Below, in pieces: positions 13,496 through 59,601 of a stretch of DNA of 64,000 nucleotides; position 1 is the stretch's first letter; the number at the start of each line of letters is the position of its first letter. The DNA is taken from positions 124,001 through 188,000 of the forward strand of contig NZ_AUPZ01000013.1 of NCBI RefSeq assembly GCF_000445475.1, in the 5' to 3' direction. Position numbers and translations under genes: made by a program. The stretch comes from Sulfurimonas hongkongensis (GTDB lineage: Bacteria > Campylobacterota > Campylobacteria > Campylobacterales > Sulfurimonadaceae). Below the pieces are notes generated by a model that saw nothing but the letters and a program-made list of their open reading frames with translations, was not told where the DNA came from and made no database searches.

Positions 13496-14377
13496 TTATT
13501 TTATCAGTCGTACATATACTCTTGCAGGTGCGTCGTAACCCTCTACAGTTTTAGTATTATCCTCTGGATCTAAAAAGTCTTGCAATGACTGCCCTTCTAT
13601 CCACGAAGTTTTTCTCTGCTCACTTGCGTCTGTTTGCATAGTCTCCAAAACCTCAAAGCTACTAAACCCAGCTCTGTGGCACCAGTTTTTTAAAGCTGGT
13701 ATTGTTGGAACAAAGTAGATATTTGGTATCTTTGAATAAGATGATTTTGGACAAAGTGCCATCTCTTCATCACCTTTGATATAAAAGGTATCAAGAATAA
13801 CCTCACCCTCCTTATCAAGCCCACGATAAAGAGACTTAAGCATTGCTATTGGATCACTTCTATGGTACAAAACACCCAAACAAAAGATGGTATCAAACTT
13901 CTCTTCGTAAACTGGCAGATGCTCAACTCCCAAGAGTTCATAAACAATATCACTCTTTACAAAATGATTTATAAAATCAAACTGCGTCTTATAAAGAGGT
14001 GATGGATCAAAGCCTACTAGAGTCTTTGGATTGTCCTCTTGCATGCGAAACAGATAATATCCATTGTTACATCCTATATCGGCAACTCTCTTATTTTTTA
14101 AATCAAAATGTTTTCTAAGCAGGTTATACTTGATATTACTCTTCCACTCAGCATCTATAAATGTGTCACAAACATCAAAAGGCCCTTTTCTCCAAGGCAT
14201 CAAAAGCTTTGCAACACTATATACATCACAAGGTTCATTTGAACTTATCTTTATAGCTTCTCCTAATGTAATCTCAAAGCTACCATCAGGCAGAGTACCC
14301 AAAGCATCACGAAGTGGTTTGATATTTTTCCATGTCATCCATTTTTGTCTCTCTTTTCTTATCTCATCTAGGTTCAT
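13496..14377 (-). CDS. cmoB: tRNA U34 carboxymethyltransferase
   Basis: CmoB transfers a carboxymethyl group from carboxy-SAM to 5-hydroxyuridine at the wobble base of tRNAs, giving cmo5U. The SAM-binding loop is [15 protein letters not shown], followed by [16 protein letters not shown], both characteristic of CmoB. The start is taken at 14377 ([13 protein letters not shown]). A longer frame back to 14455 would add a hydrophobic stretch not expected for this cytosolic enzyme. No strong ribosome binding site is visible for 14377, so the start is moderately sure. The partner CmoA is not in the window. Confidence 0.93.
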
Positions 14378-14454
14378 ATCAATCTTTATATCAGTAATTT
14401 TTGTTACAATTGTACCAAAAATTATAATGAACAATAGTGTAATACAAAATCGCA

Positions 14455-14473
14455 TGACAAAATAAAGTGAAGG
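14455..14473 (+). repeat. 19-bp direct repeat, copy 1
   Basis: TGACAAAATAAAGTGAAGG occurs here and again, identically, 204 bases downstream at 14659-14677. Copy 1 is followed by AAACCCTT and copy 2 by GTTTCC, so the two copies open into the 13-base inverted repeat. Related boxes lie at 14691 and 20165. Confidence 0.85.
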
Positions 14474-14487
14474 AAACCCTTTGCTAA

Positions 14488-14560
14488 TTCCAATGCTCCG
14501 CGTTGGAACTCATGTATATTTTTAGGTGTTATATATAGACTCCCACGCAGAGCGTGGGAG
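14488..14560 (+). repeat. REPIN-like element: two inverted hairpins, copy B1
   Basis: Two stem-loops lie in inverted orientation about 30 bases apart. Hairpin a (14488-14508) is TTCCAATGC, loop TCC, GCGTTGGAA; hairpin b (14540-14560) is CTCCCACGC, loop AGA, GCGTGGGAG, a perfect nine-base stem. On its opposite strand hairpin b aligns with hairpin a, the arrangement known as a REPIN. The sequence resembles the widespread ...CCCACGCTCTGCGTGGG... REP class mobilised by RAYT transposases. A second copy in opposite orientation lies at 59501-59577. Confidence 0.8.
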
Positions 14561-14578
14561 CCAGAGGAAATAACAAGA

Positions 14579-14657
14579 GGCACAAGTGCCGAGGGCTTCC
14601 TGCCGAAGGAAGTGCCCTTGGGGTATTAGCGTAGTTAGCGGGATTACTCCCGATACC
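14579..14657 (+). repeat. Cluster of three hairpins inside the 14.5-kb repeat island
   Basis: GGCAC-AA-GTGCC (14579-14590) is followed by AGGGC/GCCCT with inner TTCC/GGAA (14592-14618). A third structure spans 14622-14657, with outer GGTAT/ATACC, inner CGGGA/TCCCG and loop TTAC. The first palindrome has a counterpart, GACAC-AA-GTGTC, upstream of radA, where the other two hairpins are absent. No open frame or U-run suggests a gene or terminator. Confidence 0.7.
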
Positions 14658-14658
14658 G

Positions 14659-14677
14659 TGACAAAATAAAGTGAAGG
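14659..14677 (+). repeat. 19-bp direct repeat, copy 2
   Basis: Identical to 14455-14473. It lies directly after the hairpin cluster; together with the preceding G it reads GTGACAAA..., matching the box that follows a palindrome upstream of radA (20164-20183). The degenerate third copy (TTACAAAGTAAAATTAAGG, 14690-14708) is only about 13 bases further on and overlaps the translation start region of the next gene. Confidence 0.85.
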
Positions 14678-14715
14678 GTTTCCTTCATTTTACAAAGTAA
14701 AATTAAGGAATATTA

Positions 14716-15609
14716 ATGCGTTTAGAGAAAAAAGCTACTGTGGTTTCAACAACAGTTGCAGCTATTTTAGTTTTAATGAAAACGACAGTTGGAATTTTGA
14801 GTGGTTCTATTGCTGTTTTAGCATCCGCTATTGATAGTTTTTTAGACCTCATTGTTTCTATGTTTAATTACTTTGCACTCAATACTGCTGAGAAAAATCC
14901 TGATGATAAGTTTAATTATGGAAAAAGCAAGTTAGAACCTCTCGCTGCTGTGGTTGAGGGAACTATTATATCTTTTTCGGCTATTTTTATACTCTATGAA
15001 GCCCTTGTAAAGATTGCTCATCCTAGAGAGATGTCATTTATGCAAAGCAGTATCTGGGTTATGGCAGCTTCACTTATCATAACTCTTGGGCTTGTTTTAT
15101 TTTTAAACTTTGTTGCTAAAAAAACAAATAATATGGTTATAAAAGCTGATGCACTTCATTATAAAACAGATCTTCTCTCAAACGGTGCAATTCTTTTAGC
15201 CTTAGCTCTTATTGCATATACTGGTGAGCAGTTGATTGATCCTATTTTAGGAGTTCTTATTGCTCTATATATGATCTACTCTGCTATTCCCATCATTAAA
15301 GATGGTATTTTAATGCTCTTAGACGTGGCACTCCCAGAAGAAGATATACAGAGGATTCAAGATGTCTTAGAATCAGAAGAGCTAAACGATTATCACTACT
15401 TAAAAACTAGAATCTCTGGCTCACATATCTTTATCTCAGTTCATGCAGTTTTTAATGTAAGTGTTTCTTTATATGATGCTCACCTAGTAGCCGATAGAGT
15501 CGAAGCAAAGATAAAAGCTCTTTTTGATGACAATAAGATTGTACACACACTCATACATATGGATCCATATGATGATTCAGAGATAAATGATACAGAAGAA
15601 GGATACTAA
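14716..15609 (+). CDS. Cation diffusion facilitator (FieF-type) metal exporter
   Basis: A 297-residue CDF-family antiporter that exports divalent metal (zinc or iron type) in exchange for protons. Six membrane helices fill residues 10-190. The transport site is of the DDHD kind: D40 and D44 in SAIDSFLDL, H148 and D152 in ALHYKTDLLSN, as in E. coli FieF (YiiP). The C-terminal cytoplasmic domain (about 205-290) contains further histidines (ISVHAVF, HTLIHMDPYDD). Its ribosome binding site AAGG belongs to the recurrent box described nearby. The next gene begins five bases after its stop, so both are probably one transcript. Confidence 0.9.
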   Translation: MRLEKKATVVSTTVAAILVLMKTTVGILSGSIAVLASAIDSFLDLIVSMFNYFALNTAEKNPDDKFNYGKSKLEPLAAVVEGTIISFSAIFILYEALVKIAHPREMSFMQSSIWVMAASLIITLGLVLFLNFVAKKTNNMVIKADALHYKTDLLSNGAILLALALIAYTGEQLIDPILGVLIALYMIYSAIPIIKDGILMLLDVALPEEDIQRIQDVLESEELNDYHYLKTRISGSHIFISVHAVFNVSVSLYDAHLVADRVEAKIKALFDDNKIVHTLIHMDPYDDSEINDTEEGY

Positions 15610-20151: not shown

Positions 20152-20183
20152 GACACAAGTGTCGTGACAAAGTAAAATTAAGG
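20152..20183 (+). repeat. Palindrome plus recurrent box upstream of radA
   Basis: GACAC-AA-GTGTC (20152-20163) is followed at once by GTGACAAAGTAAAATTAAGG, whose AAGG serves as the radA ribosome binding site. The 17 bases ACAAAGTAAAATTAAGG (20167-20183) are identical to 14692-14708 before the CDF gene. The palindrome differs from GGCAC-AA-GTGCC at 14579 by one paired base change on each arm. Confidence 0.75.
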
Positions 20184-59478: not shown

Positions 59479-59500
59479 GAAGGTATGGCATACTCTCTGG

Positions 59501-59577
59501 CTCCCATGCTCTGCGTGGGAGTTTATATATATGCAACACGCAAGAAGATGTATGAATTCCAACGCGGAGCATTGGAA
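59501..59577 (-). repeat. REPIN-like element, copy B2
   Basis: Hairpin CTCCCATGC/GCGTGGGAG (59501-59521) and hairpin TTCCAACGC/GCATTGGAA (59557-59577) are the reverse complement, with small changes, of the pair at 14488-14560. The AT-rich spacer differs more than the hairpins do. Opposite orientation of the two copies argues for dispersal and against tandem duplication. Confidence 0.8.
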
Positions 59578-59601
59578 CTAGTTCAGCTCAATCAGCCTCA
59601 C

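Follow-up and report, generated by a model that had tools for sequence, protein, structure and literature searches.

Several kinds of short sequence with defined structure are known from the spaces between genes. REPs and REPINs, which are associated with RAYT transposases, are short palindromic units that occur between genes in many copies, paired or in tandem; in the REPs of Escherichia coli, a GTAG tetranucleotide precedes the hairpin. Translational riboswitches and other leaders that switch the accessibility of the Shine-Dalgarno (SD) sequence begin with a folded 5' domain, after which come hairpins that exclude one another; one of these covers the SD. Viral xrRNAs, which are exonuclease-resistant pseudoknotted RNAs, form compact pseudoknots that occur in tandem, as far as the portions of the accounts consulted describe them. 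The BOX, RUP, and SPRITE repeats of pneumococci are small repeats, interspersed in the genome, that can become part of RNA leaders through co-transcription in 5' regions; according to the sections consulted in PMC3049150, they are over-represented between convergent genes.

A repeat island between cmoB and the gene of a cation efflux (CDF) transporter in Sulfurimonas hongkongensis shares traits with each of these systems. It lies in a stretch of 64,000 nucleotides that was analyzed as a whole (hereafter, the window). The island is a composite of a remnant that carries the first copy of a 19-mer, a REPIN-like pair, and one copy of a leader element; on balance, it is probably a pile-up of dispersed elements whose main part is a mobile leader element with RNA-level action and a switch-like 3' part. 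Copies of the leader element share a common order: the H1 palindrome, H2, a mini-stem, H3, the box, H4, and H5 with the SD, followed by the start codon. The features of the window copy and its surroundings are as follows.

14455–14482, plus strand: probable remnant of an upstream element copy, comprising the first 19-mer (exact repeat of 14659–14677) and then an inverted-loop half hairpin
14479–14566, no strand assigned: two inverted palindromes that form a REPIN-like pair, with an AT-rich stretch between their GC-rich hairpins and with relatives in the same genome
14575–14709, plus strand: one of the dispersed copies of the leader element, with the SD of the CDF gene at its end (model R1, 121.0 bits)
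14579–14590, plus strand: H1 palindrome GGCACAAGTGCC, core helix (covarying pairs 5-16, 6-15, and 7-14)
14594–14611, plus strand: H2 hairpin (14597–14600/14608–14611) with pseudoknot PK1, supported by covariation
14594–14596 with 14602–14604, plus strand: PK1 of the window copy, GGC with GCC
14612–14633, plus strand: region that holds the AAC strand of pseudoknot PK2 and the mini-stem in most copies, here replaced by GTGCCCTTGGGGTA
14634–14657, plus strand: H3 hairpin with loop TTAC and two mismatches in the window copy, supported by covariation
14667–14692, plus strand: H4, TAAAGTGAAGG (within the second 19-mer) with CCTTCATTTTA; predicted to be dominant, leaving the SD open
14682–14708, plus strand: H5, the same CCTTCATTTTAC strand with GTAAAATTAAGG instead, covering the SD
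14705–14709, plus strand: Shine-Dalgarno sequence AAGGA
14716–14718, plus strand: start codon of the CDF gene
14716–15609, plus strand: downstream gene of the cation efflux (CDF) transporter (Pfam PF01545 and PF16916)
20152–20183, plus strand: shrunken element remnant at radA, in which the H1 palindrome directly adjoins the box and the SD, the core and H4 having been lost

The two identical copies of the 19-mer TGACAAAATAAAGTGAAGG (14455–14473 and 14659–14677) that an initial annotation of this DNA had noticed are genuine repeats. When up to three mismatches are allowed, the window holds 3 sites, whereas 100 shuffles gave 0.07 on average; there is also a weaker third copy at 14690–14708 and a three-mismatch copy at radA. 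Across the whole 2.30-Mb genome, the exact 19-mer has 2 sites and its degenerate form (≤3 mismatches) has 34, versus 8 with a reversed-pattern control, and one-mismatch versions are located inside other copies of the leader element. A BLAST search with the island against the same genome gave 57 matches (E ≤ 10), which fall into two groups: relatives of the REPIN-like stretch (14479–14566) and relatives of about 14570–14716. These matches and the excess of degenerate 19-mer sites exclude chance as the source of the repeats, and the caveat that the 19-mer might be a fortuitous match absent elsewhere in the genome can be dismissed. The inverted repeat said to bracket the island is also present, but it is longer than the 13 bases originally given, because 14463–14481 and 14674–14692 are 95% complementary over 19 nt. 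The stretch 14455–14482 is probably the remnant of an upstream element copy; its 19-mer corresponds to the box plus the 5' arm of H4, and the same flank in the closest relative (G037) reads GTGACAAAATAA, followed by the H1 palindrome of a leader element.

The REPIN-like pair recognized within the island withstood closer inspection. Like known REPINs, it consists of two inverted REP-like palindromes and is dispersed in many copies: the same genome has nine relatives by BLAST, eight of them near full-length and one partial; G037 has two copies at the same locus. A second pair is present in the window at 59495–59581 on the minus strand (C13:183495–183581 of the genome). Unlike in systems of REPs or REPINs with RAYT, no intact RAYT (Y1) transposase was found in a PF01797 search of the S. 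hongkongensis genome, and the same search identified no mobilizing enzyme for the leader element. An active RAYT as the mover was not found in this genome; the sole PF01797 match (25.2 bits; cut-off, 23) has an HUH motif that looks broken by eye. It lies in a 461-aa protein on contig C21 (L343:1462–2847), whose N-terminal part is weakly similar to Y1 transposases and whose C-terminal half is a SapC domain; at E ≤ 1e-5, the protein as a whole matches only SapC.

The main part of the island is a copy of a widespread structured leader element that has been previously unrecognized. Searches against Rfam yielded no match to the element, neither in the window (gathering threshold) nor at seven element loci (E ≤ 1), and the matches at seven order-level loci were to RNase P, tmRNA, and, below threshold, a stretch within tmRNA. 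The portions of the literature searched, including those of PMC12306157, PMC3049150, and PMC3847290, contain no description of it. A covariance model (R1) was built from 21 of 36 aligned copies (36 of 37 hand-extracted copies had been kept), leaving out 15 copies with length changes that were misaligned by MAFFT. In the genome of S. hongkongensis, R1 has 68 matches at E ≤ 1, of which 40 remain at E ≤ 1e-7. The element was detected in 127 of the 135 genomes of the genus (E ≤ 0.01) and in 214 of the 228 genomes of the family (E ≤ 0.001), representing 16 of its 18 genera; both surveys consider best matches, and the copies per genome are lower bounds. At the level of the order, 139 of 398 genomes have a match at E ≤ 1e-5, 44 of which were counted in the family and the remaining 95 outside it, in other families. 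A core-only model (R2) gave 125 matches in five genomes.

The fold of the core is conserved, with helices and two pseudoknots that are backed by compensatory changes. In the alignment of the 21 sequences of R1, which also served for the pair-change test, 91.4% of the cells are paired and 20 of the 35 pairs show two-sided changes. The 85 two-sided cells compare to 21.9 after shuffling, a number reached in 0 of 500 shuffles; this significance is overstated, because both copies and genomes are related by descent. Mutual information among 103 aligned matches recovers the helices, and one pair outside the model (20-30; GC 68, AU 32) ranks with the helix pairs. The two pseudoknots are of the H-type and are evident in 46 diverse cores, selected from the 103 rows at <80% identity and 76–84 nt, with one row dropped by hand. 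PK1 pairs GGC with the H2 loop GCC or variants thereof, and PK2 pairs AAC with GUU. All 276 cells of their six pairs are paired, and two-sided changes number 21, versus 5.9 after shuffling; further pair types show no excess (5 versus 5.2 shuffled), and the changes in PK2 are few (three GC for AU at one pair and one at another). A third pseudoknot (GTAG at 51–54 with the H3 loop) was rejected, its three pairs holding in just 39, 29, and 43 of the 46 cores. Among the cells of the helices and pseudoknots, 50 hold G-T mispairs and 15 A-C mispairs, which indicates that it is the sense strand that folds, either as RNA or as single-stranded DNA. Compact pseudoknots and tandem occurrence are traits that the element has in common with viral xrRNAs as portrayed in the portions consulted; its sequence and topology differ by eye, and it resides in bacterial leaders. 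In the window copy, GTGCCCTTGGGGTA replaces the AAC strand of PK2, so that a consensus-type PK2 cannot form there. This lack of the 5' strand counts against a function of this particular copy, which may be partly decayed. An optional extra hairpin (GUACCCUUGGGGUA) is located between H2 and H3 in several copies (L003, L029, L030, L222, and others) and is shortened in the window copy.

The 3' part of the element contains two competing helices. The strand CCUUCAUUUUA can pair either with an upstream partner, UGAAGG (H4), or with a downstream partner, the SD region (H5), and its versions come paired with matching upstream and downstream partners. When partners were swapped among 82 unique copies (of 90 rows, with 11 order-level loci left out), the native H4 and the native H5 were each more stable than in 200 of 200 swaps (H4, −8.10 versus a swap mean of −6.69 kcal/mol; H5, −5.95 versus −4.48 kcal/mol), although here, too, the relatedness of the copies exaggerates the significance. 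At two loci outside the genus (L352 and L353), the H5 pairing is kept with changed letters. The helices are thus predicted to be mutually exclusive, with one of them hiding the SD, as is typical of a translational switch. A closed default is contradicted by H4 being stronger than H5 in 66 of the 82 copies, and simple sequestration of the SD finds no support, because the SD is predicted to be more open in the elements than in controls: the mean probability of being unpaired is 0.61 in 48 elements and 0.46 in 22 control genes (p = 0.007; 22 of 31 genes, the rest being without an SD match). This argues for a leader that is open by default and has a closed state as its alternative. The folded 5' domain and the exclusive hairpins, one of which covers the SD, resemble those of translational riboswitches. 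The element differs from them in its many unrelated targets, its tandem and antisense copies, its gain by insertion, its predicted preference for the open state, and the absence of an Rfam match.

Copies of the element are placed directly before start codons. Among the copies from the genus, a start codon follows 0–11 nt past the R1 match in 83 of 84 cases, as compared to 5 of 84 when the other end and the other strand are considered. This test included 85 of 125 matches after exclusion of duplicates and of matches below 79 bits, and one of the 85 was cut off; because R1 includes the SD end, copies without an SD are under-counted. The sole miss is the gene of 50S ribosomal protein L32, whose short reading frame failed the length rule although its ATG is visible. 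For the 49 matches listed for the S. hongkongensis genome, the start codon is located at a distance of 5–12 nt in 25 cases and of 17–25 nt in 4 cases; the remaining 20 have none, and most of these are remnants, lie near tRNAs, or precede another copy in a tandem. The copies detected with R2 in codirectional gaps are predominantly in sense orientation (53 versus 17 antisense; p = 1.9e-5), also in Sulfurimonas alone (34 versus 6). The others among the 106 copies placed (of 125 matches) are located in divergent leaders (22), between convergent genes (5), or inside reading frames (6) or have no assigned region (3); placement relied on a crude gene caller, and at least the rplL row is misfiled. The 17 antisense and 5 convergent copies, several of them in tRNA clusters, cannot act as leaders, which counts against a role as leader. 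Whereas REPs show no orientation bias relative to the start codon, the leader element has a sense bias and a near-constant distance to the start codon, and it further differs from REPs and REPINs in its two pseudoknots and its SD end. The bias toward 5' leaders also contrasts with the convergent gaps favored by BOX, RUP, and SPRITE, for which the sections consulted in PMC3049150 describe no switch that ends in an SD. The proteins encoded downstream include DapB, HypA, ribosomal proteins L7/L12, L19, L27, and L32, DnaK, FabI, an omega-like (Rpb6 family) subunit of RNA polymerase, NifU, FliJ, FlgD, PurS, LuxS, and the CDF transporter. Such a broad regulon (ribosomal proteins, dnaK, fabI, dapB, flagellar genes, hypA, and luxS) is odd for a ligand switch.

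The element has been gained at individual genes. Among 89 genomes with a BLAST match to the CDF gene (E ≤ 1e-100), only those of S. hongkongensis, G037, and G063 extend into the element, which means that relatives do not all share the same full island. The covariance model detects it at 1 of 80 named CDF loci (L141, from the same genome as G037), 79 of which hold more than 200 bases upstream. Upstream of radA, G037 carries two tandem copies with scores of 60.1 and 51.6 bits. The model finds nothing at the remaining 29 of 30 loci, one of which is the remnant of S. hongkongensis; the other 28 show no element by eye. The palindrome and box reported upstream of radA at 20152–20183 are present, and the site is a filled site that has shrunk rather than the empty site proposed in the initial annotation. 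At both CDF and radA, the AGG of the SD is, by eye, the point where host sequence begins again. In an order-level genome (G336), a sense core (725–805) is located inside a class A RNase P RNA gene (L357:545–1009), where the alignment places the insertion in the loop of the arm that follows ACAGAAA, which we take to be P12. As is characteristic of mobile elements, the leader element is thus present or absent at orthologous sites (CDF and radA) and inserted into another gene (RNase P). That it spreads is evident from the gains at CDF and radA, the antisense copies, and the copy inside the RNase P RNA gene, and this set is best explained by a mobile element whose RNA folds autonomously.

The arrangement of five loci suggests a possible history of the island. 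Where the CDF locus is empty (G134, G025, G117, and G122), a short leader links the promoter to the SD. The element was probably gained before the split of G063, G037, and S. hongkongensis, and a second copy and the REPIN-like pair would have been added before the latter two diverged. G037 seems to have later duplicated part of the locus, and the upstream copy in S. hongkongensis presumably shrank to the first 19-mer.

That the island is built of dispersed repeat units and was shaped by insertion was correctly anticipated, but the details of the insertion have to be revised. Exact 19-bp direct repeats flank the REPIN-like pair and part of the element, and they were taken for target-site duplications around an insertion, with radA as the empty site. 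Such duplications should lie outside the element and be single in empty sites, an arrangement encountered at neither CDF nor radA. The second 19-mer belongs to the interior of the element (end of H3, box, and H4 arm), one-mismatch versions recur within other copies, the radA form is a remnant, and real empty sites for CDF and radA, which exist in other genomes, lack the 19-mer; the comparisons at radA and CDF refute this explanation. A less remote alternative, which we nevertheless regard as rather unlikely, is that the element is a mere mobile DNA repeat of the REP or MITE type, whose single-stranded hairpins serve a transposase, whose insertion next to the SD is due to chance, and whose RNA has no role. 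Dispersed, tandem, and antisense copies, those in tRNA clusters and in the P12 arm of the RNase P RNA gene, and the conserved GTAG that precedes H3 would all fit a DNA repeat. However, two pseudoknots with compensatory changes are not expected of an insertion substrate, and the pair of competing helices, each covarying with the strand they share, the sense bias, and the near-constant spacing to the start codon are also difficult to reconcile with it. The only Y1-like match in the genome, with its seemingly broken HUH motif in a protein that otherwise matches only SapC, also speaks against this explanation.

RNase J has a major part in the post-transcriptional control of H. pylori, according to the part of PMC10700544 consulted. 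The pseudoknotted core might accordingly be a putative shield of the 5' end against a 5'-to-3' exonuclease (RNase J) that stabilizes the mRNA, with H4 and H5 merely freeing the SD. The compact pseudoknots, the tandem arrays, the placement upstream of housekeeping genes and of tmRNA, and the predicted openness of the SD agree with such a role, but it leaves the conservation and covariation of H5 unexplained and is at odds with the existence of antisense copies; we consider it possible but doubtful. If the element instead acts as a leader with a switch-like 3' part, as we favor, it may control the translation of downstream genes. It would insert between promoter and start codon and be transcribed into the 5' leader, where H4 would form first and keep the SD open, so that the insertion would be tolerated; if the core then sensed a condition or ligand, the balance would shift to H5 and translation would be lowered. 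More tentatively, the element might be a mobile riboregulator, that is, a two-pseudoknot RNA domain that spreads by insertion, fuses to the SD of the gene where it lands, and brings along a bistable translation switch. In Sulfurimonas and related bacteria, it would thereby build and reshuffle a regulon of housekeeping genes, with a fold sturdy enough to be accommodated in RNase P RNA. In that case, a bacterial family would harbor an unannotated RNA domain, in tens of copies in each genome, before core genes, among them those for ribosomal proteins L7/L12, L19, L27, and L32, DnaK, FabI, DapB, and flagellar components, and a spreading element would have rewired its gene regulation. It would then become testable how mobile sequences turn into regulatory leaders without killing expression, and a two-pseudoknot RNA fold would be open to direct study.

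Several individual loci deserve mention. Judged by eye from the start shared by its relatives, cmoB begins near 14377, and the reading frame that reaches 14455 is over-extended by about 26 codons (14378–14455). The 5' end of a tmRNA gene (849–1267) at L352 adjoins an element copy (720–851) whose H5-like hairpin has a different sequence. Antisense core elements are located between tRNA genes at L284, L286 (S. hongkongensis), L356, and L452. A stretch of the S. hongkongensis genome (L302; C9:14700–18300) contains both a tRNA-Trp gene and tandem core units about 90 nt apart; the units of this array have no SD part, and the last of them is followed by what appears by eye to be a reading frame similar to that of ribosomal protein L11.
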